Positions 8,029 to 18,021 of a DNA stretch of 64,000 bases are shown in pieces. The stretch is from Acidimicrobiales bacterium. Lineage in GTDB: Bacteria; Actinomycetota; Acidimicrobiia; Acidimicrobiales; Bog-793. The notes beneath the pieces are model-generated. The model was given only the letters and a program-made list of their open reading frames with translations. It had not been told where the DNA came from and did no database searches. Where the stretch lies: positions 1 through 64,000 of the forward strand of contig DATLTN010000052.1 in assembly GCA_035533595.1 (NCBI GenBank). The letters run 5' to 3'. The first letter of the stretch is position 1, and each line of letters starts with the position of its first letter. A program made the position numbers and the translations under genes.

Positions 8029-9252
8029 ATGAGGCGGCGACTCGCGGTGGTGGCGGTGCTCTTCGTCGTGTTCTGCACGACCTTCGCGAGCAACGGCCCG
8101 TCGATCCTCTACGTCGTCTACCAGGGCAAATACCACTTCACCTCGCTCACGGTGACGGCGATCTTCAGCGTCTACGCGGTCGCCGTGCTCGCCACGCTGC
8201 TCGTGGTCGGCCGCCTCTCGGACGTCGTCGGCCGACGCCCCCTGCTGCTCGCTGGTGCGGCGCTGCTCGTCGCGAGCGCGCTGCTCTTCGCGCTCGCCCG
8301 TTCGGCCCTGTGGCTCTTCGCGGCGCGCGCCCTGCAGGGCGTCGCCACCGGCACCCTCATCGCCGCGGCGGGCGCCTCGCTCGTCGAGCTCTCACCGCCG
8401 CGCCAGCGTCCGCGGGCCGCGCTGATGAACACCGTCGCCTTCCTCACCGGCGCGGCGGCCGGCTCGCTCGCCTTCGGGGTGATGGTGCAGTTCCTGCCGT
8501 CGCCGACGGTGCTCCCCTACGTGCTCGAGATCGCCCTCGACGGCGGCGCGCTGCTCGCGGTCGCGGTGCTGGTGATCGAGACGGTGACGCCCGGTGAGCA
8601 CGCCCGCTGGAGGCTGCAGCGCCCTTCGGTACCACGCGCCATCCTCCGCCCGTTCGTCGTCTCCTCGGTCACGATGGGGGTCGGCTGGTCGCTCGGCGGC
8701 GTCTACGGCGCGCTCAGCCCGACGATGACCCGCCAGATCCTGCACGTCTCGAGCCACCTCGTCGCCGGCGCCGTGCTCTGCACCTTCAACCTCGTCGGCG
8801 GGGTCGCGCAGCTTCTCCGCAGGCGGCACGGCGCCCGCGGCTCGATGCTGGCGGGGCTGGCCCTGGTGGCGCTCGGCGCGGCGCTCATCCAGCTCGCCTT
8901 CACCGCCCGCTCCTCGCTGCTGCTCTTCCTCGCCACGCTCTTCGGCGGAGCCGGAGCCGGGATGGCCTTCGTCGGGAGCCTCGCCCTCGTGAACGAGCTG
9001 GCGCCGGCAGCGCGCCGCGCCGAGGCGCTTGCGGCCTACAACCTGGTGGGCTATCTGGCGCTCTCGCTGCCGGTGATTGGTGTCGGCCTGCTCACGAGCG
9101 CGCTCGGCCTGCGCACCGCCTCACTGGTCTTCTGCTGCCTGCTGGTCGCCGCCGCGGGGCTGTTGGCGTTGCCGCTGCGGCGCGTCGGTGTCGCGGCCGA
9201 GGCGGTGGGGGAGCGGGGGCTCGGGGCCCGCCCTGCCGCTCAGGTGCGGTAG
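8029..9252 (+). CDS. Major facilitator superfamily permease
   Basis: The 407-residue membrane protein has about 12 hydrophobic helices. The first is LAVVAVLFVVFCTTFASNG. The loop 2-3 MFS signature VVGRLSDVVGRRPLLLAG is intact, and two six-helix halves are separated by a basic loop near ERARWRLQRPSVPRA-like sequence. ATG 8029 was preferred over upstream in-frame codons because it starts right before helix 1. The gene is divergent from the 2-hydroxyacid dehydrogenase and overlaps the 3' end of the convergent aldolase gene by 13 bases. It may export or import the organic acid processed by its neighbours; the sequence does not fix the substrate. Confidence 0.88.
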   Translation: MRRRLAVVAVLFVVFCTTFASNGPSILYVVYQGKYHFTSLTVTAIFSVYAVAVLATLLVVGRLSDVVGRRPLLLAGAALLVASALLFALARSALWLFAARALQGVATGTLIAAAGASLVELSPPRQRPRAALMNTVAFLTGAAAGSLAFGVMVQFLPSPTVLPYVLEIALDGGALLAVAVLVIETVTPGEHARWRLQRPSVPRAILRPFVVSSVTMGVGWSLGGVYGALSPTMTRQILHVSSHLVAGAVLCTFNLVGGVAQLLRRRHGARGSMLAGLALVALGAALIQLAFTARSSLLLFLATLFGGAGAGMAFVGSLALVNELAPAARRAEALAAYNLVGYLALSLPVIGVGLLTSALGLRTASLVFCCLLVAAAGLLALPLRRVGVAAEAVGERGLGARPAAQVR

Positions 9253-10025
9253 GAGGGGTCGATCTCGTCGATCTGGCGCTGGTAGGCCTCGAAGGCCCGC
9301 AGGCCGGCCTCGGGGCTCGCGAGCATCTTCCGGTAGTCACCGGAGGAGCGCTCGTGCGCGGAGTCCGAGACCTGCTTGATCTTGCCGCCGGTGCTCATCG
9401 TCGCCACCTGGATCTCACACGAGCGCTCGAGGGTCCACAGGCGCATGAACGCCGACTCGAGCGTGGCGCCCGCCGAGAGGAGGCCGTGGTTGTGGAGGAC
9501 GAGGAGCCACTCCTCGCCGAGGTTCTCGACAAGGCGGTCCTGCTCGTCCTTCTCCAAGGTGATGCCCTCGAAGTCGTGGTAGCGGATCTGCCCCCAGAGC
9601 TGGGAGGCGTAGAAGTTGTTGCCGTCGATCGGGCCGTCGAGGCCGGCGACGGCAGAGCCGGCGGTGGTGTGAGTGTGCATCACCGCGTGGATGTCCGGCC
9701 GTGCCGCGTGCAGGGCGGTGTGGATGATCACCCCGGCGCGGTTCACCGGCCAGGTGTCGTCCCCGATGATGTTCCCCTGGAGGTCGATCTTCACGAGGTT
9801 GGAGGCCGTGACGTCGCAGTAGCGGAGGCCGAAGGGGTTGATCAACAGGTGCGTCTCGGGGCCGGGGACGCGCAGCGAGATGTGGTTGAAGATCAGCTCG
9901 GTCCAGCCGAGGTAGTTGAAGATCCGGTAGCAGGCGGCGAGCTTCACCCGCAGCGCCCATTCCTCGTCGGAGACACCGGCCTTCTTGCTCGTCTCCGTCA
10001 CCAACGGCTGTTCGATGACCGCCAT
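9240..10025 (-). CDS. Class II aldolase/adducin family protein (copy 1)
   Basis: The 261-residue protein has the class II aldolase/adducin head domain. LGWTELIFNHISLRVPG is followed by LINPFGLRYCDVTASNLVKI, the zinc ligands HAVMHTHTTAG and a third histidine in LVLHNHGLLSAG. Members cleave sugar or hydroxyacid phosphates, decarboxylate related substrates, or act as non-enzymatic homologues. Its start is divergent from the tartrate/isopropylmalate-type dehydrogenase at 10141, with about 115 bp between them that must hold both promoters. The stop overlaps the MFS gene by 13 bases. Together with the dehydrogenase it suggests catabolism of a hydroxydicarboxylate or sugar acid (inference). A second family member lies at 15384-16139. 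Confidence 0.87.
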   Translation of the reverse strand: MAVIEQPLVTETSKKAGVSDEEWALRVKLAACYRIFNYLGWTELIFNHISLRVPGPETHLLINPFGLRYCDVTASNLVKIDLQGNIIGDDTWPVNRAGVIIHTALHAARPDIHAVMHTHTTAGSAVAGLDGPIDGNNFYASQLWGQIRYHDFEGITLEKDEQDRLVENLGEEWLLVLHNHGLLSAGATLESAFMRLWTLERSCEIQVATMSTGGKIKQVSDSAHERSSGDYRKMLASPEAGLRAFEAYQRQIDEIDPSYRT

Positions 10026-10140
10026 CGTCGCCTCCGTCCTCTCGGACCCTCGTCGTGTAGTCGAGCGTGTGCTGCTTTATCTTTGCGCATCCAGCCGGCC
10101 GGTAACTTCCAGGGCTGAATCTCGCGTGAGAGGAGCCCTG

Positions 10141-11211
10141 ATGCCGAAGCGCTACAAGGTGGCCGTGATCCCCGGTGACGGGATCGGCAACGAGGTGGTG
10201 CCGGCGGCCCTCGAGGTCCTCGAGGTCGTGGGGAGCCGCTTCGACTTCGCTCTCGAGCTCGTCGAATACCCCTGGGGGTGCGAGTACTACACCCGTGCCG
10301 GGGAGATGATGCCGGCGGACGGCCTCGCCCAGCTCGCCGAGCACGAAGCGATCTTCCTCGGTGCCGTCGGCTTCCCGGGTGTCCCCGACGACGTCTCGCT
10401 ATGGGGCCTTTTGATCCCGATCCGGCGCAGCTTCCACCAGTACGTGAACCTCCGCCCCGTGAAGCTGCTCGAGGGGGTGCCGAGCCCGCTACGCCCGGAG
10501 GTGATCGGCGGAGGAGTCGACCTCGTCATCGTCCGCGAGAACAACGAGGGGGAGTACTCCGAGATCGGGGGTCGCCTCTACCGCGACACCCCCGACGAGA
10601 TCGCCGTGCAGGAGGCAGTCTTCACGCGCCGCGGCATCGAGCGGGTGGCCCGTTTCGCGTTCGACCTCGCGCGCACGCGCCGCTCGTACGTGATGTCGGC
10701 GACGAAGTCGAACGGCATCATCCACACCCTCCCCTTCTGGGACCAGGTGGTGGGGGAGGTCGCCGAGCAGTACCCGGACGTCCGCTACGAGAAGATGCAC
10801 GTCGACGCCCTGGCGGCGGCGTTCGTGCAGCGCCCGGGGCACTTCGACGTGGTCCTCGGCTCGAACCTCTTCGCGGACATCCTGAGCGACCTCGGCGCAG
10901 CGGTGGCCGGCAGCATCGGGATCGCTCCGTCGGGGAACCTCGATCCGACGAGGGACAACCCTTCGATGTTCGAGCCCGTGCACGGCTCGGCTCCCGACAT
11001 CGCCGGGAAGGGGATCGCCAACCCGATCGGCCAGATCTGGTCGGGCTCGATGATGCTGCGCCACCTCGGCGAGGAAGCGGGCGCGGAGGCGATCGATCAG
11101 GCGATCGCACGAGTCCTCGCGACGAGCGAGATCCGCACCGGCGACCTCGGAGGCAAATCGACGACCGCCGAGGTGACCCGCGCGATCGTCGATGCCCTGC
11201 CTGCGAGTTGA
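10141..11211 (+). CDS. Tartrate dehydrogenase / D-malate dehydrogenase-type decarboxylating enzyme
   Basis: The 356-residue protein belongs to the isocitrate/isopropylmalate dehydrogenase family. It begins YKVAVIPGDGIGNEVVPAAL and has NLRPVKLLEGVPSPL, IVRENNEGEYSEIGG, the catalytic region SATKSNGIIHTLPFW, and the metal/NAD-binding blocks LGSNLFADILSDLGAA and MFEPVHGSAPDIAGKGIANP. WGCEYYTRAGEMMP and LWGLLIPIRRSFHQYVNLRP favour the TtuC/D-malate subgroup over LeuB. It would oxidatively decarboxylate a 2-hydroxy dicarboxylate using NAD and a divalent metal. ATG 10141 is preceded by GAGAGGAG; an upstream in-frame extension was rejected. Confidence 0.88.
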   Translation: MPKRYKVAVIPGDGIGNEVVPAALEVLEVVGSRFDFALELVEYPWGCEYYTRAGEMMPADGLAQLAEHEAIFLGAVGFPGVPDDVSLWGLLIPIRRSFHQYVNLRPVKLLEGVPSPLRPEVIGGGVDLVIVRENNEGEYSEIGGRLYRDTPDEIAVQEAVFTRRGIERVARFAFDLARTRRSYVMSATKSNGIIHTLPFWDQVVGEVAEQYPDVRYEKMHVDALAAAFVQRPGHFDVVLGSNLFADILSDLGAAVAGSIGIAPSGNLDPTRDNPSMFEPVHGSAPDIAGKGIANPIGQIWSGSMMLRHLGEEAGAEAIDQAIARVLATSEIRTGDLGGKSTTAEVTRAIVDALPAS

Positions 11212-11214
11212 GCG

Positions 11215-11270
11215 CCCGGCCACAGAACCTTCCATATGTCGACAGGATTATGTGACGGACCCGGCCACAG
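11215..11270. repeat. 11-bp direct repeat bracketing a short intergenic element
   Basis: CCCGGCCACAG occurs at 11215-11225 and again at 11260-11270, a 45-bp period. The bases between are relatively AT-rich and include TCCATATG and ATTATGTGACGG. The latter resembles ATTAATGTGACGG at 12183-12195, beyond the SDR gene. The element sits in the promoter region of the SDR gene and could be an operator pair or the scar of a small insertion. Confidence 0.4.
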
Positions 11271-11328
11271 CGACCCGCCGAGGTAGACGACGACGGGAGC
11301 CACTCGCCGGCGCACAAGGGGGACTGCG

Positions 11329-12122
11329 ATGCTCGATCTCCTGAACTTCGAAGGCCGCTCGGTCGTCGTGACCGGTGCCGCACGCGGCATCGGACGCGCG
11401 ACGGCGGCGGTCTTCGCCGAGCTCGGCGCCAGCCTCGTCGCCGTCGACATCGACCCGGACCTCCCGGACGCCGTCGCCGCCGAGCCGTCGCTCTACGGCG
11501 GAGGTGCCGTCGCCGTCGTTGCCGACGTGAGCGACGAGGGCGCCGTCAACGAGCTCGCGGCCCGGTGCGCGGCGGAGCAGCACGAGATCGCCGCCGTGGT
11601 GAACGTCGTCGGGCGGGGGAGTCGCGCGGCACTCGGCGAGCTCGAGCTCGCCGAGTGGGAGAGCGTGCTGAGCACCTCGCTCACCAGCATGTTCCTGATG
11701 ACGAGGGCATTCCTCCCGCTCGTCGTCCCGACGAAGGGAGTTTCGTCAACGTTGCCTCGACGCACGCCTTCGTCGCGCTCCCGCTCGGCGCCGCGTACAG
11801 CGCGGCGAAGGGCGGAGTGGTCTTGTTCACCCGACAGGTGGCGACCGAGGTCGGCTCCCTCGGAGTGCGGGCCAACGCCGTCTGCCCGGGACCGATCGAC
11901 ACCCGCGGCCGCACTGCCACCTTCCGACCGGAGTCGGCGTTGAGCACCGTCCTCGGGCGCACCGCGGACCCTTCGGAGGTGGCGAACGTGATCGCCTTCC
12001 TCGCCTCCCCGGCCGCTTCCTTCGTCACCGGGGCGGCGATCGTGATCGACGGTGGGCAGACGATCCATCGGGGCCACGTGGATCGCACCCGATTGCTCGA
12101 TCCTGCCGCGCACGAGCCGTGA
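11329..12122 (+). pseudogene. Short-chain dehydrogenase/reductase broken by a single frameshift
   Basis: The first frame (from ATG 11329) gives VVVTGAARGIGRATAAVFAE, the NAD(P)-binding glycine motif, then VVNVVGRGSRAALGELELAE. The frame fails at the G run 11736-11738, in AAGGGAG. The next frame resumes at once with SFVNVASTHAFVALPLGAAY, then SAAKGGVVLFTRQVATEVGS, with catalytic Ser-Tyr-Lys, and ends RTADPSEVANVIAFLASPAA and FVTGAAIVIDGGQTIHRG. Adding one G restores a normal protein of about 264 residues. Apart from this base there is no decay, so either a very recent loss or a sequencing error explains it. It probably oxidises a secondary alcohol in the adjacent hydroxyacid pathway. Confidence 0.85.
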
Positions 12123-12151
12123 CAACGCAGGTGCACTTCGGCCCGGGGGGG

Positions 12152-12197
12152 CTCCGTCACGCAAGCACGTCCAATATGGACGATTAATGTGACGGAG
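12152..12197. other. Nested inverted repeat at the convergent SDR/amidase-like 3' ends
   Basis: Outer arms CTCCGTCAC (12152-12160) and GTGACGGAG (12189-12197) are perfect complements. Inner arms CGTCC (12168-12172) and GGACG (12178-12182) pair around AATAT. The right arm includes the last codons of the minus-strand amidase-like gene. The position suits a bidirectional terminator or roadblock. No T-run follows, so a protein-binding site is equally possible. Confidence 0.45.
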
Positions 12198-13554
12198 GAA
12201 GAGTGCCGATCGGGGCGATTCGCTCCCACGAGTGGAGGGCCTGCAACTGTGCGGCGACGGCGAGGAGCGTCGCCTCACCGCCCGGGGGCGCCACCAGCTG
12301 TACGCCGATTGGCAGCCCCGCCTCGTCGCGGTCGTAGGGGAGTGAGGCGGCGGGCAGCCCGGCGACGTTCCACGGCGGCGTGTACAGCCAGTTGGTGACC
12401 GCGTTCATGGTGCGCAGCCATCCCCGCGGCCAGGATCCGACCGGCGGCGGGCCGCTCGTCAACGTCGGGGTGATCAACAGGTCGTAGCCCTGGAACCACC
12501 TGCGCATCGCCACGGCGAAGGCGTCGTCGGCGACGGGTGTGGCCTTGCGACGGGCGGCTCGGCCGTGGCGAGCCACCTTGCGGGTGCGCCGCTCCAACCT
12601 CTCGGTGGGGAGGCCCTCGGCCTCGTCTGCCATCGCCGCCTGCCATCGGTGGGTGAAGCGGAAGGTGATGTCGGCAGGGTAGGGGGGACGATCGGCGGTG
12701 ATCCGGTGGCCGGCCTGCTGCAGCGTCGTGGCTGCGCCCTTCACCGCTTCGTAGACCGCCGGCGTGATGCGGGCCGCGGGGGAGTAGTGGCCCGGCGCGT
12801 AAGCGATCCGGAGGGGGGCGGGCGGCGGCAGCGGGTCGCGGTAGCTCCGGGAGCCGGCGAGGACGTCGAGGGCGAGGCCGACGTCCTCGGCGCTGCGTCC
12901 GATCGGCCCAGCGGTCGTCATCCCGTACATCCGGGCCGCTTCCGGCTCGACCGGCGCGAGGAGATCGGGGCCGGGCTTCAGCCCGAACAGGCCACAGCAG
13001 CTCGCCGGGACACGTAGCCCGCCTACCCCGTCGGTCGCGACGGCGAGGACCGCCATCCCGGCAGCGACGGCGGCCGCGGCGCCCCCGGCGGCGCCGCCGG
13101 GGGAGTGCGCGGTGTTCCAGGGGTTTCGTGGCGCCTCCGCGCGCTCGGGCTCGGTGAAGGGCCAGATCCCGAACTCCGCGACCGAGGTCGTGCCAACGAT
13201 GAGCGCACCAGCTCCCCGCAGCATCGCGACGAGCGGATCATCCCGCACCGCCGGGTCCGGCGACGTTGCCGCCGAGCCGCGCTCGTTCGGAAGGCCGGCC
13301 ACCGCGAGGTCTGCGCTCACTGCCACCGGAATGCCTGCAAGGGGGCGGTCGCTCGGCTCGCGACGAGCGTCAAAGCTCTCGGCCTCGGCCAGCACGGCCG
13401 CCCGACGGAGGTGCCGGAAGGCGTGGAGGGTCGGCTCGAGGCGTTCGATGCGGTCAAGGTGTGCCCGCACGAGCTCGGTCGCCGTACATTGGCCGCTCCG
13501 CACCCGCTCTGAGAGCTCACCCGCTCCGAGGTCGGTGAGCAGCTGGTCGGTCAT
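12184..13554 (-). CDS. Amidase-signature family protein lacking all three catalytic residues
   Basis: The 456-residue, full-length member of the amidase signature family keeps the fold landmarks. However, the Ser-cisSer-Lys triad is gone. The first-strand motif reads GIPVAVSADLAVAGLPNERG, with S80 where the catalytic Lys should be. The glycine-serine loop reads HSPGGAAGGAAAAVAAGM, with A155 at the cis-Ser position. The nucleophile loop reads TDGVGGLRVPASCCGLFGLK, with G179 at the Ser position. The frame is intact and codon bias normal. Hydrolysis by the usual mechanism should be impossible, so a binding, scaffold or altered enzymatic role is likely. It is convergent with the SDR gene and is followed upstream (13676) by the co-directional cysteine hydrolase. 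Confidence 0.88.
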   Translation of the reverse strand: MTDQLLTDLGAGELSERVRSGQCTATELVRAHLDRIERLEPTLHAFRHLRRAAVLAEAESFDARREPSDRPLAGIPVAVSADLAVAGLPNERGSAATSPDPAVRDDPLVAMLRGAGALIVGTTSVAEFGIWPFTEPERAEAPRNPWNTAHSPGGAAGGAAAAVAAGMAVLAVATDGVGGLRVPASCCGLFGLKPGPDLLAPVEPEAARMYGMTTAGPIGRSAEDVGLALDVLAGSRSYRDPLPPPAPLRIAYAPGHYSPAARITPAVYEAVKGAATTLQQAGHRITADRPPYPADITFRFTHRWQAAMADEAEGLPTERLERRTRKVARHGRAARRKATPVADDAFAVAMRRWFQGYDLLITPTLTSGPPPVGSWPRGWLRTMNAVTNWLYTPPWNVAGLPAASLPYDRDEAGLPIGVQLVAPPGGEATLLAVAAQLQALHSWERIAPIGTLPPSH

Positions 13555-13675
13555 CCGGACGATCCCTTCGCGGCACGGCGCCCACGGCGACGAAGCGAAG
13601 ATCGTAAAGCGCGGCGGAGCAGCCCTCAGGCCGTCACGGCGATGTCAGCGGGGGAAGGTGAGGCCATGACCGCGG

Positions 13676-14395
13676 TCAGGCCAATTGCAGGTCGGGCAGC
13701 CCCGCTGCGCCCTTGTGCAGCTGGTCCAGGTAGCCGACCGTCTCGTCGAGGCTGACGACGTCGGCGTACTTCATGTGCAGATCGAAGAGCGAGACCTTGT
13801 GCGAGAGCTGGTTGCGGTCGGCTACGCACTCGGACGGCACGATGCAGTGGAAGTTGTTCTGGAAGGCGTCCATCACCGTCGCGCGCACGCAACCGCTCGT
13901 GACCATCCCGGTGACGATCGCCGTGTCGCAGCCGGCGTGCACGAGGTAGGAGGTGAGTGGCGTACCGAAAAAGGCGCTCGGCCGACCGGCCTTGTTGATC
14001 ACGATCTCCCCCGGCAGGGGAGTGAGCTCATCGACGATCACGTCGCCAGGGGGCGCGTCAGCGGGGGGCGCCGGTCGCGAGGTCGACTTCCAGCGTCCCC
14101 GCTCGGCGGGCGTCGGCTGGTGATCGGGCTCGGCATAGCCCTTGGTGAAGAAGATCGGCAGCCCGGCGGCACGCGCCACCTCCAGCAACCGGGCGTTCGC
14201 GGCCGCGGCGGGATAGCCGGTCGCGCTGAAGCCGGTCGGGTAGGTCGAATCGACGAAGGCACGCGTCATGTCGACCACGATCACCGCAGGACGCTCGCCC
14301 GCGGTGATCGGGCGGTCCTGCTGGTCGTAGCTGCGGCCCATCGCCGCGAGGTCATCAGCGCCAAAGACGCCGTCCCAGGGCTTGTTCCTCGCCAT
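13676..14395 (-). CDS. Isochorismatase-like cysteine hydrolase
   Basis: The 239-residue protein has the triad of the cysteine hydrolase (isochorismatase/N-carbamoylsarcosine amidase) family. Asp lies in AVIVVDMTRAFVD, Lys in EIVINKAGRPSAFFGT and Cys in TGMVTSGCVRATVMDAF. The nucleophile motif SGCVRATVMDA is typical of N-carbamoylsarcosine or maleamate amidohydrolases, so it probably releases ammonia from a carbamoyl or amide substrate. GGGGAGGA lies 4 bases before ATG 14395. It is upstream of and co-directional with the degenerate amidase-like gene, about 120 bp apart. It may be the working amide hydrolase of this pair (inference). Confidence 0.88.
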   Translation of the reverse strand: MARNKPWDGVFGADDLAAMGRSYDQQDRPITAGERPAVIVVDMTRAFVDSTYPTGFSATGYPAAAANARLLEVARAAGLPIFFTKGYAEPDHQPTPAERGRWKSTSRPAPPADAPPGDVIVDELTPLPGEIVINKAGRPSAFFGTPLTSYLVHAGCDTAIVTGMVTSGCVRATVMDAFQNNFHCIVPSECVADRNQLSHKVSLFDLHMKYADVVSLDETVGYLDQLHKGAAGLPDLQLA

Positions 14396-14681
14396 TTGTC
14401 CTCCCCGTCCGCGTGCTCGCTCCGGTGCGTCGTGCCGAGCCGTGGGCCCCAGTATGGGGCGCTCCGACGAGGTGCGCCCCGGAGAGTGCTGCAAGACAAC
14501 AATGCCGGAGGCTCGAGGAAGGCCGCGATCTCGTCTGCGCCGCCATGGTGTGGCCAGTGGCCTAGGCATCGCCCTCGGAATGCCACGACCGGCCGTGGCA
14601 CCCCACCTCTTTCCTGCGGCGGGAGCCTGCCGGTCGGGGAGGACTTGAAGGGCTGAACATTCCGACCCTTCGGGGACCCTA
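14396..14681. other. Intergenic stretch without a recognisable gene
   Basis: About 290 bp upstream of the cysteine hydrolase gene. No open frame with conserved features is seen on either strand. It presumably contains the hydrolase promoter. Short inverted motifs at 14682-14709 lie at its far end. Confidence 0.5.
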
Positions 14682-14709
14682 ATAATGTAACTTACATAAC
14701 GAACATTAT
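14682..14709. promoter_or_regulatory. AT-rich nested palindrome, candidate operator
   Basis: ATGTAACTTACAT (14685-14697) is a perfect dyad around a central C. A second pair, ATAATGT (14682-14688) and ACATTAT (14703-14709), overlaps it. This AT-rich block is striking in a window near 70% GC. It lies about 40 bp past the stop of the acyltransferase gene and about 290 bp before the cysteine hydrolase start. The form resembles TetR- or MarR-type operators; no regulator gene is adjacent. Confidence 0.4.
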
Positions 14710-14747
14710 CGGCGTCAGGACGAAAGGCACAAGGGAGATCCGTGTCG

Positions 14748-15290
14748 TCACAGCTGTCTGATAACGGTGGCCGGCACGCCTGCTACAAGGGTGGCCGGGG
14801 GCACGTCGCGGGTGACCACAGCGCCGGCGCCTACGACGGCACCGGCTCCGATGTTCACGCCGGGCAGGATTGTCGCGGCCGCGCCGATCCACACGTTGGT
14901 GCCAATCGTGATTGGCTCCGCCGTGATGTAGTCCCGCCGTTTGCTCGGTTCGACGGGGTGACCGGCCGTTATGAGGTTGACCTTGTGCGCAATCATCACC
15001 TCGTCGGCGATGTCGATGGCTGCGTGGCCGGTGAACGCGCACTGATAGCCGATGAAGACGGACCGGCCGACGGAGATGTTCAACCCGTAGTCGGTGTAGA
15101 AGGGCGGAATCAGTGTGAAGGAGTCCCCAACCGGCTTGCCGATGAGCTCCTCGAAGGCGATCCGGATCGACTCAGCCTCCTCAAGGCAGTAGGCGCTCAG
15201 CTTTGAGGAAAGCCGGGTGGCCAGCTTGACCCGTTCGAAGAGCTCACGGAACTCCGGCGTCCTGGTCTTGATGAGTTGCGCCTCGTGCAT
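14748..15290 (-). CDS. Hexapeptide-repeat sugar O-acetyltransferase (maltose/galactoside acetyltransferase-like)
   Basis: The 180-residue protein ends in a left-handed beta-helix of hexapeptide repeats: ISVGRSVFIGYQCAFTGHAA, then ITIGTNVWIGAAATILPGVN and IGAGAVVGAGAVVTRDVPP. It closes with the family tail LVAGVPATVIRQL. The active-site histidine region is LITAGHPVEPSKRRDY, matching maltose/galactoside acetyltransferases. An acetyl-CoA-dependent O-acetylation of a sugar or related alcohol is expected. AGGAG precedes ATG 15290. It stands apart from its neighbours, with an AT-rich palindrome beyond its 3' end. Confidence 0.88.
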   Translation of the reverse strand: MHEAQLIKTRTPEFRELFERVKLATRLSSKLSAYCLEEAESIRIAFEELIGKPVGDSFTLIPPFYTDYGLNISVGRSVFIGYQCAFTGHAAIDIADEVMIAHKVNLITAGHPVEPSKRRDYITAEPITIGTNVWIGAAATILPGVNIGAGAVVGAGAVVTRDVPPATLVAGVPATVIRQL

Positions 15291-15383
15291 GCCGCTCCTG
15301 AAGCCTGCCGCTGGGGTTCCAAAGGTAGTGAGACTGCTACCTGAGTTCGCGACACGTCGTCGGGGCTGCTCCCCGCCTACCGG

Positions 15384-16139
15384 TCAGCCGACGGGGATCT
15401 CCCCGGCGACCATCCCGTAGTAGCGGTAATTGGCGAGCATGCCCGCTTCGCCGCCCGCCGAGCCACGCGGTCGGTTCGCCTCCGGGTCGCGCAGCAGGTG
15501 GTCGATGTCGCCCTGCGGGAGGGGCTTCGGGTCACCGACGAGGTAGGCCTCGTAGGTGAGCTTCAGCAGCTCGTTGAGCTCGAGCGCGCGCACCGTCGCG
15601 TCCTCGATGCTCGTTCCGGCGACGGTGATCCCATGGCCGCGCATCAGGGCGAACTTCTTCTTGCCGATGAAGGCGGCAAACTTCTCACCCATCTCCTGGG
15701 TGTGGATCGTGATGCTCGTCGGGTAGGTGTCGATCCCTTCCGCGGCGATGCGCGCGCCCTGGGCGTTTCGGCCGTGGATCGGGAGGATCGGCTTCTCGCA
15801 GGCGGTGAGGATGAGCGCGGCACGCGGGTGCATGTGCACCACGCTGCGCAGCTCGGGGTTCGCCTTCAGAATGCATGTGTGCAGGTAGATCTCGCTCGGT
15901 GAGCGGACCCCCTCGGTGCCGCCTTCGAGGGTGTTGCCGGCGAAGTCCACCTCGACGATGTCGGAGTCACGCGTGTAGCGCACGCCGAGCTGGTCCTTGC
16001 CCTTTCCCCGGATGAGGACGCTCTCGGACTCGCCGTCCCAGTAGCTGATGTGGCCCTCGGAACCGTGGGTCATGTCCCAGGTCCCCATGATCCGGCAGGC
16101 CTCTGCGAGCCGTGCGGCGATCTTCTTGTCACGCGCCAT
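15384..16139 (-). CDS. Class II aldolase/adducin family protein (copy 2)
   Basis: The 251-residue protein shows MTHGSEGHISYWDG near the N terminus, zinc ligands SVVHMHPRAALILTACE and a third histidine in FALMRGHGITVAGTSIED. It is only distantly related to the copy at 9240-10025, so the two were probably acquired separately. GGGAGGAA lies just before ATG 16139; an arginine-rich upstream extension was rejected. The subgroup includes fuculose-phosphate and ribulose-phosphate aldolases as well as uncharacterised decarboxylases. The neighbouring enolase-superfamily gene (16885-18021) would fit sugar-acid catabolism, but they are not in one operon. Confidence 0.86.
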   Translation of the reverse strand: MARDKKIAARLAEACRIMGTWDMTHGSEGHISYWDGESESVLIRGKGKDQLGVRYTRDSDIVEVDFAGNTLEGGTEGVRSPSEIYLHTCILKANPELRSVVHMHPRAALILTACEKPILPIHGRNAQGARIAAEGIDTYPTSITIHTQEMGEKFAAFIGKKKFALMRGHGITVAGTSIEDATVRALELNELLKLTYEAYLVGDPKPLPQGDIDHLLRDPEANRPRGSAGGEAGMLANYRYYGMVAGEIPVG

Positions 16140-16400
16140 GGCGTTCCTCCCTTGTCGACGTCGGTGCCATCGCTCGGGTCGGAGCACCGGCGCGACGGAC
16201 GTCTGCCGACGGGTCGATGCGCCGGCGGAACGCTGCTCGGGGGCGTGGCCCCGATGCTCGCTCCCCCACCTGGGCTTGGGCGATCGTAAGGCCGCGACCC
16301 GGGGGGGTCAACGCAGCGGGCGACGTCGCTGACGCGCGGCCGGCACGTGTCGGGCTGCGGTCGAGTTGAACCCAGCGCTCCCGGCAGCCAGGCGCGATCC
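16140..16400. promoter_or_regulatory. Divergent intergenic region, aldolase copy 2 / YbaK-like
   Basis: This 261-bp spacer must hold the promoters of both the minus-strand aldolase and the plus-strand YbaK-like gene. I see the aldolase Shine-Dalgarno sequence at its left end, but no convincing -10/-35 pair or palindrome. Confidence 0.4.
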
Positions 16401-16877
16401 ATGAGCGGCGTTGGCGAGTCGTCGGTGGCAAGGGCGTTGCGCGCGGCGGGGGCCAAGGGAGAGGTGCGCGAGTTCGATGCCTCGACGAGGACTGCCGCCG
16501 AGGCTGCGGCAGCGCTCGGCTGCCCGGTGGGTGCGATCGCCAACTCGCTCGTCTTCGTCGCCGATGGCACGCCGATCCTCGTCCTCGCGAGCGGCGCGCA
16601 CCGAGTCGACCTCGAGTCCCTCGCCGCGGCGCTCGGTTGCGGCGAGCTCCGGCGCGCCAGCCCCGAGGAGGTGCGCGCCGCGACCGGGCAGGTGATCGGC
16701 GGCGTCGCCCCGCTCGGTCATCCCGCGCCGCTGAGAGCCGTGATCGACGAGGCGCTGCGCGACCACGAGGTGCTGTGGGCCTCGGCCGGCAGCCCGCACT
16801 CGGTCTTCTCGACCGACTTCGAAGAGCTGCGGGGCCTCGCCGGCGCGCTGCCCGTGACGGTCACGCCGCCGGCCTAG
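16401..16877 (+). CDS. YbaK/EbsC-like aminoacyl-tRNA deacylase domain protein
   Basis: The 158-residue single-domain protein contains LGCPVGAIANSLVFVADG, LVLASGAHRVDLESLAAAL, VIGGVAPLGHPAPLRAVIDE and WASAGSPHSVFSTDFEEL, the landmarks of the YbaK/ProX editing fold. Such proteins hydrolyse mischarged Cys- or Ala-tRNA(Pro) in trans. The lysine that is important in Haemophilus YbaK and in ProX is replaced by asparagine (N48 in AIANSLVF). From memory, this variant recurs in a subgroup of actinobacterial homologues, so activity or specificity may differ. ATG 16401 starts the conserved domain. It is convergent with the enolase-superfamily gene, leaving only 7 bases between stops. Confidence 0.85.
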   Translation: MSGVGESSVARALRAAGAKGEVREFDASTRTAAEAAAALGCPVGAIANSLVFVADGTPILVLASGAHRVDLESLAAALGCGELRRASPEEVRAATGQVIGGVAPLGHPAPLRAVIDEALRDHEVLWASAGSPHSVFSTDFEELRGLAGALPVTVTPPA

Positions 16878-16884
16878 GTGCCCC

Positions 16885-18021
16885 TCAGGCAGCGGTGAAG
16901 CGTTCGAGCGCCTCGGGATCGAAGTCGATCCCGAGGCCCGGTCGGTCGGGGCAGAGGACCTTCCCGTCGACGGTCTCGAGGCGCGTCTCGGGGGTGACGA
17001 GGCGCTCGAAGTTGTAGATGTCCTTGGCGAGCTCGAAGTATTCGACACCGAGGCTGTTCGGCGCGGCCGCGGCGAGGTGGACGTGCAGGTTGGCATGCCA
17101 GTGGGGGGCGACGGGGAGGCGGAAGGTCTCAGCCGTGCGGGCGATGCGGATCCATTCGCTCACGCCGCCGAGCACCCCGGCGTCCGGTTGCAGGATGTCG
17201 GCGGCGCCCGCCTCGATGAGGGCGCGGAACTCGTGCCGGGTCTGGGCGATCTCACCCGTCGCGATGGGCGTCTCGACGGTCCGGGCGAGCTCGGCGTGAC
17301 CGGCGATGTCGTCGGGTGAGAGCGGCTCCTCCATCCACCACAGCCCCCGCTCCCCCGCGGCGCGCTCGAAGGCACGGATCGCCCGCAGCGCCTCGTGGGC
17401 GTTCGGGTAGGCGTTGTTCGCGTCGAGCGCGAGGCGACCACCCGGACGGATCGGCTCGAGCGCGGCGGCCACCCGGCGGGCGTCCGCCTCGACGGAGAGG
17501 CCGCCGACCTTGATCTTGTGGTCGGCAAAGCCGAGCTGCTCGTTGTGCGCGATCTCGGCGCGCACGGCCTCCTCGGGTGAGGCGCCCTCGTCGCGGTAGT
17601 AGCCGCCGGAGGCGTAGCAGGCCACGGCGCCGGTCCGCCCTCCGAGGAGGACCGCGAGGGGCAGCCCCGCCCGCTTTCCGGCGAGGTCCCACAGGGCGAT
17701 GTCGAGGGCGGCGATGGCGCGCAGCACGATCCCCCGACGCCCGGTGAGGAGGGTCTCCTGGTAGAGGCGCTCGTAGAGGCCGAGGATGTTCTCGGCCTCC
17801 TCCCCGAGCGCGCTCGGCGTGAGCAGTTCGGTGACGGCGCGCGCGAGGAGCGGCCCGCCCGTGGTGCCGGCGTAGCTGTAGCCGACGCCGCTTCGCCCCT
17901 CTTCCTCTTCGACCTCGACGATGACGAAGTCACGGCGGTCAAGGATGCGAGTCGACATCCGGGTCGGCTTCTCGACAGGGATCGAGACCGCCCGGGCCCT
18001 CACCGCGCTGAGCTTTGACAC
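16885..18021 (-). CDS. Mandelate racemase/muconate lactonizing family (enolase superfamily) enzyme
   Basis: The 378-residue protein has the capping domain and TIM barrel of the enolase superfamily. The base KxK is in DHKIKVGG. The metal ligands are in LALDANNAYPN, WWMEEPLSPDD and PIATGEIAQT, and the general-acid/base histidine is in PVAPHWHANLHVHLA. These features assign it to the mandelate racemase subgroup, whose members racemise or dehydrate alpha-hydroxy acids and sugar acids with Mg2+. The start ATG 18021 gives SAVRARAVSIPVEKPTRMS, the normal N-terminal strand. It probably dehydrates a sugar acid; the substrate cannot be specified without modelling of the 20s loop. Confidence 0.9.
   Translation of the reverse strand: MSKLSAVRARAVSIPVEKPTRMSTRILDRRDFVIVEVEEEEGRSGVGYSYAGTTGGPLLARAVTELLTPSALGEEAENILGLYERLYQETLLTGRRGIVLRAIAALDIALWDLAGKRAGLPLAVLLGGRTGAVACYASGGYYRDEGASPEEAVRAEIAHNEQLGFADHKIKVGGLSVEADARRVAAALEPIRPGGRLALDANNAYPNAHEALRAIRAFERAAGERGLWWMEEPLSPDDIAGHAELARTVETPIATGEIAQTRHEFRALIEAGAADILQPDAGVLGGVSEWIRIARTAETFRLPVAPHWHANLHVHLAAAAPNSLGVEYFELAKDIYNFERLVTPETRLETVDGKVLCPDRPGLGIDFDPEALERFTAA

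Follow-up and report, generated by a model that had tools for sequence, protein, structure and literature searches.

The window, by which we mean the whole stretch of 64,000 nt that was analysed, carries on its reverse strand a gene for an amidase-signature (AS) protein that lacks the catalytic Lys-cisSer-Ser triad (KSS) (Table 1). Its frame contains zero internal stops, and the preliminary description of the product as a full-length amidase homologue was borne out by a Pfam Amidase (PF01425) match of 256 bits over the whole model (profile 1–445 of 445). Solved AS enzymes align with it end to end, the best being NylA (3a2p, E = 1e-41), and by full-length homology and AS fold the protein belongs to the AS fold family by descent. 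Narrower assignments failed: the best curated models, PRK12470 (NF009119) and PRK06061 (NF004717), matched over the full length with 318.5 and 299 bits, respectively, both below the curated cut-off of 498, and the GatA model (TIGR00132) reached 148 bits against a curated cut-off of 481. Neither gatB nor gatC was found among the scanned neighbouring genes, and the same genome encodes another amidase, of the GatA type and with a KSS triad (L004). AlphaFold2, supplied with an alignment of ten proteins (the window protein and loci from the DNA scan described below), produced a model with a pLDDT of 77.8 and a pTM of 0.87. The best 50 Foldseek matches of this model were amidase-fold proteins only (TM ~0.7–0.9), including GatA, NylA, urethanases, and malonamidase E2; as modelled, the amidase fold is kept.

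Table 1. Positions of the features at the locus and of related genes elsewhere (positions without a prefix refer to the window)
Feature	Position	Strand	Remark
Triad-less AS protein, 456 aa	12184-13554	-	Single open frame; full-length PF01425 match
Codon 80, AGC (Ser), catalytic Lys position	13315..13317	-	AAG in relatives
Codon 81, GCA (Ala), normally Asp of the KD motif	13312..13314	-	GAC in relatives
Codon 155, GCC (Ala), cis-Ser position, in GGAAGGA	13090..13092	-	TCC in relatives
Codon 156, GCC (Ala), second Ser of GGSSGG	13087..13089	-	TCG in relatives
Codon 179, GGG (Gly), nucleophilic Ser position, in TDGVGGLRVP	13018..13020	-	TCG in relatives
Isochorismatase-like cysteine hydrolase, upstream of the amidase	13676..14569	-	Likely start 14413; PF00857, 120 bits
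Short-chain dehydrogenase (SDR) gene	11329-12122	+	Split across two frames near 11720
Catabolic-type genes surrounding the amidase	9240-18021		
Second cysteine hydrolase, same genome (L092, L104)	G000:C4:57465-58154		64% identical to the amidase-adjacent one
Triad-less GatA	L080:2345-5500		
Triad-less GatA	L078:205-3360		
Triad-less GatA	L069:6958-7998		
Triad-less GatA	L076:2444-5801		
Triad-less GatA	L067:1-2731		
Triad-less GatA	L064:2693-5760		
Triad-less GatA	L070:5166-6973		
Other amidase, both Ser lost	L073:3815-5422		
Other amidase, both Ser lost	L079:1-1674		
Other amidase, both Ser lost	L066:6743-7999		
Other amidase, both Ser lost	L077		

On the same strand, across a gap of 121 bp, lies a cysteine hydrolase whose nearest named solved relative is N-carbamoylsarcosine amidohydrolase and whose translation carries VVDM, NKAGRP, and SGCVR, which we take to be its Asp, Lys, and Cys motifs. 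This enzyme could act alone. The idea that it is the partner of the triad-less amidase derives from their proximity and appears doubtful to us; the pairing, put forward in the preliminary description, found no comparative support among the relatives of either gene. Within the stretches examined, no homologue of the hydrolase was present near the KSS relatives, and no amidase lay beside the closest hydrolase homologues (one 59% identical in G001, a genome of the same family, and a 64%-identical paralogue). A promoter and terminator scan returned one site of each kind, neither of them between the two genes. The second cysteine hydrolase of this genome is accompanied, at a distance of ~1.2 kb, by a third, more distant copy. 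On the other side of the amidase, the SDR gene has its N-terminal and C-terminal halves in different frames and is either a pseudogene or an assembly error. The surrounding catabolic-type genes encode two class II aldolases, of which one is closest to 3,4-dihydroxyphthalate decarboxylase, a hexapeptide transferase, a talarate/galactarate-dehydratase-like protein of the enolase superfamily, and a protein that matches tartrate dehydrogenase above the cut-off; an MFS transporter gene lies just beyond them. The cluster may possibly serve the breakdown of sugar acids.

Alignments with homologues put Ser80, Ala155, and Gly179 at the positions of the catalytic Lys, the cis-Ser, and the nucleophilic Ser, respectively, as the preliminary description had proposed; the placement was the same in every alignment, and none located the triad elsewhere. 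All three motifs are altered: Ser80-Ala81 replaces the Lys-Asp of (V/I)xKD, the cis-Ser loop (SPGGAAGGAAAA) reads GGAAGGA with Ala155 in place of GGSSGG(S), in line with the change from GGSSGGS originally described, and DxxGSxR has become DGVGGLR with Gly179. The view that only these three residues had changed held for the triad itself but was too narrow, as Asp81 and Ser156 are also replaced by Ala (D81->A, S156->A). Across codons 80, 81, 155, 156, and 179, L106 and L107, the nearest relatives, have a different base at 9 of the 15 positions. That these bases are unreal and result from assembly or binning is barely credible: the draft source genome comprises 73 contigs, and the frameshift in the SDR gene next door could be an assembly error, but nine differences that fall into three separate stretches, keep the frame, and all lie in the active site would be an implausible error pattern, and the codon usage matches that of the neighbouring genes. 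Since all three triad residues are gone, and since any one of the single replacements K70A, S147A, or S171A abolishes activity in the AS amidase QsdB (PMC3676327), this protein is very unlikely to hydrolyse substrates by the AS mechanism.

The nearest relatives (346 and 341 bits, 45% identity) were found in two genomes that belong to a different and very small class of the same phylum, and both are K-S-S. Among the homologues fetched for similarity, a selection independent of triad loss, 91 had the KSS state and one (L122) ESS. In a tree built with the active-site columns masked, the triad-less protein sits in a clade of 23 rows (SH-aLRT 99), in which its branching relative to L106/L107 is not resolved; from the same fork, its end branch measures 0.98 versus 0.51 for the sister row L106. 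The protein descends from KSS amidases. L122, a member of the same clade, has Glu at the catalytic Lys (VAVEDVVD) and an intact Ser pair. A second protein with the Ser/Ala/Gly (S/A/G) state was sought in ~1,040 distinct genomes (relatives, samples of the order, class, and phylum, and the whole family), in plasmids, and in a GTDB-wide DNA search with peptide patterns, and none was found; the GTDB-wide DNA scan for the triad-loss pattern also returned no second S/A/G orthologue. The 34 other genomes of the same family held no close homologue (best match 185 bits, 37%), and no synteny with KSS relatives appeared in any of the 22 neighbourhoods inspected. The S/A/G state so far appears to be an isolated event, and the suggested conservation of S/A/G across a clade has no clade on which it could pass or fail, because no second member was found. 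The preliminary description had also named a combination that would speak against it, namely orthologues that keep Lys/Ser/Ser with this copy as the only exception and under relaxed selection; the relatives have indeed retained K/S/S, which makes this copy the sole exception, while the part on relaxed selection turned out ambiguous.

Departures from conservation were counted at 64 positions invariant in 22 relatives of the clade, from which K80 is left out solely because of the Glu in L122. The triad-less protein keeps 53 of them and departs at 11 (S155A, S156A, and S179G as well as L70R, V75I, L128F, T220R, V222A, A366T, P390L, and P442S), eight of which fall outside the active site, whereas in a leave-one-out comparison the relatives depart at ≤ 3 invariant positions each. 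A rate model expects 7.3 departures on the triad-less branch, but the relatives show 0.4 of what it predicts for them (19 observed vs. 48.1 modelled), so that ~3 rather than 7.3 would be normal for this protein; the eight departures outside the active site are to be set against these ~3. The statement that the triad had been lost without other decay was consequently too strong, with eight other clade-invariant positions changed outside the triad and S156. When 83 positions with ≥ 95% conservation were considered, all three triad positions were found among the 17 departures (p = 0.007), and this concentration of changes at the active site favours a loss of catalysis in a protein that retained its fold. 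The pattern would thus be one of catalysis lost and fold kept plus some general acceleration at invariant positions, and because of this acceleration slow decay stays a rival. The dN/dS of the gene versus L106/L107 was uninformative, as the sequences are too diverged (dS ~0.9).

A decaying gene would be one that lost its function in this lineage, perhaps after horizontal acquisition, with the active site changing first, the remainder drifting, and a stop or frameshift still unmet. We hold this to be rather unlikely, although several observations go with it: the gene is a singleton and the 34 other same-family genomes contain no subclade of its kind, and 27% of simulated neutral decays were still free of stops at 0.05 substitutions per site. 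The long end branch, the surplus of changed invariant positions, which extends beyond the active site, and the adjoining frameshifted SDR gene point the same way and, together with the unshared neighbourhood, count against a pseudoenzyme. However, as stop-free runs made up no more than 27% at 0.05 and just 10% at 0.1 and 1.5% at 0.2 substitutions per site, the intact frame also speaks for a pseudoenzyme; mild drift that leaves the frame free of stops fails to explain 9 of 15 changed bases in five active-site codons, the fold was modelled well, and the codon usage is still native (codon fit of 0.358 and 0.359 nats per codon for the triad-less and the adjacent gene; GC3 of 0.87). The selected non-hydrolytic role proposed in the preliminary description is the likeliest reading and agrees with the missing triad, the intact frame, the native codons, and the focus of the changes on the active site; the evidence for purifying selection after the loss is indirect, as no orthologue sharing the S/A/G state was found.

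Triad loss in other genomes was surveyed with a strict DNA pattern (cis-Ser and nucleophilic Ser both lost) over 84,980 species genomes, which yielded 17 stretches, 11 of them amidase genes. So few stretches in so many genomes mark the triad-less state as uncommon and not something read by chance; as the pattern in its unconstrained form fits 35 of 63 loci and so reaches only part of the family, the counts are a lower bound. Seven of the amidase genes are GatA of Bacillota, in which the Lys is replaced by G/S/N/T, the cis-Ser by A, and the nucleophilic Ser by D/A. The gene order is gatC-gatA-gatB in L080, L078, and L076, gatA then gatB in L064 and L067, and gatC precedes gatA in L070, while the L069 stretch ends inside gatA; the GatB and GatC encoded beside triad-less GatA score above the curated cut-offs. 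The triad-less copy is the sole TIGR00132 match in six of the seven draft genomes, and G1041 has a second, KSS copy. L080, L078, and L069, all with the state G/A/D, represent the only genomes of their order in the searched collection, and their drafts gave no GlnRS match above the cut-off (weak ~70-bit hits were of a GluRS-like kind). The drafts came without completeness values, and a second GatA or a GlnRS may have been missed. L080 also has VKGEI where ordinary GatA carries its KRRI motif. Several of these Bacillota drafts presumably resemble MAGs from anaerobic digesters. In this one clade, dN/dS among the GatA genes of L080, L078, and L141 amounts to 0.15–0.19, i.e., these GatA proteins are under purifying selection, and triad-less amidase folds can accordingly be maintained. 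Taken together, these findings suggest an ammonia-dependent, glutaminase-dead GatCAB transamidosome; if true, such a GatCAB would run on free ammonia and be unable to use glutamine. A literature search for glutaminase-dead GatCAB found no paper. The other amidases without both Ser comprise two from Gammaproteobacteria (T/E/G and Q/G/G), one from a spirochaete (K/A/A), and one from an acidobacterium (A/G), the last lying near a KSS copy.

The Asp found at the nucleophile position of several triad-less GatA proteins, as well as Asp82 and Asp175 in the remodelled loops of the window protein, would be compatible with a new chemistry in which such residues took over the old pocket. For the window protein this is very improbable: its nucleophile position is Gly, with neither Cys nor Ser as a replacement, Asp175 is an ordinary residue of the family, and the alignments show no candidate nucleophile.

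We therefore consider it fairly probable that the window gene encodes a pseudoenzyme of the AS family with a non-hydrolytic role, in which the fold was kept and hydrolysis lost. Its ancestor would have been a PRK12470/PRK06061-type amidase of actinobacteria. The lost Lys, cis-Ser, and Ser are responsible for forming and stabilising the acyl-enzyme; without them amide hydrolysis should be impossible, and the gene would persist for some task that needs the fold. Most simply, the protein would bind a small ligand resembling an amide or a carboxylate, or serve as a structural partner of another enzyme. On its own, the window protein is one gene, the sole copy of its kind found in the searches; together with triad-less GatA it suggests repeated loss of catalysis in the AS fold. 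More tentatively, hydrolases of this fold might several times in bacteria have given rise to non-hydrolytic proteins that bind ligands or act as scaffolds, both among stand-alone amidases like this one and in GatCAB, in its glutaminase subunit. Within a large and thoroughly studied family, such a complete but triad-less fold offers a way to test what the loss of catalysis costs and what it is good for.

A literature search for amidase-signature pseudoenzymes found no paper, and known systems can be compared on single aspects. The actinobacterial amidases of PRK12470 and PRK06061 provide the best full-length curated models, from which the window protein differs by its score below the cut-off and by the missing Lys-cisSer-Ser. 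NylA (6-aminohexanoate cyclic dimer hydrolase), the best solved sequence match and one of the best fold matches (TM 0.86), is an active enzyme with the full triad, in contrast to the window protein. Triad-less GatA of Bacillota shares the independent loss of the same residues, with an identical PGGAAGG loop in L080, but is placed far from the window protein in the tree, carries Asp or Ala at the nucleophile position, where the window protein has Gly, and owes a known context to its gatC and/or gatB neighbours. The Arabidopsis AS homologues of the Toc64 type (At3g17970 and At5g09420), which are associated with the chloroplast Toc and mitochondrial Tom complexes in protein import, are described as most probably without enzymatic activity (PMC8393822); compared by description, they resemble the window protein in being AS proteins that are probably inactive, and, unlike this bacterial protein, they are members of import complexes.
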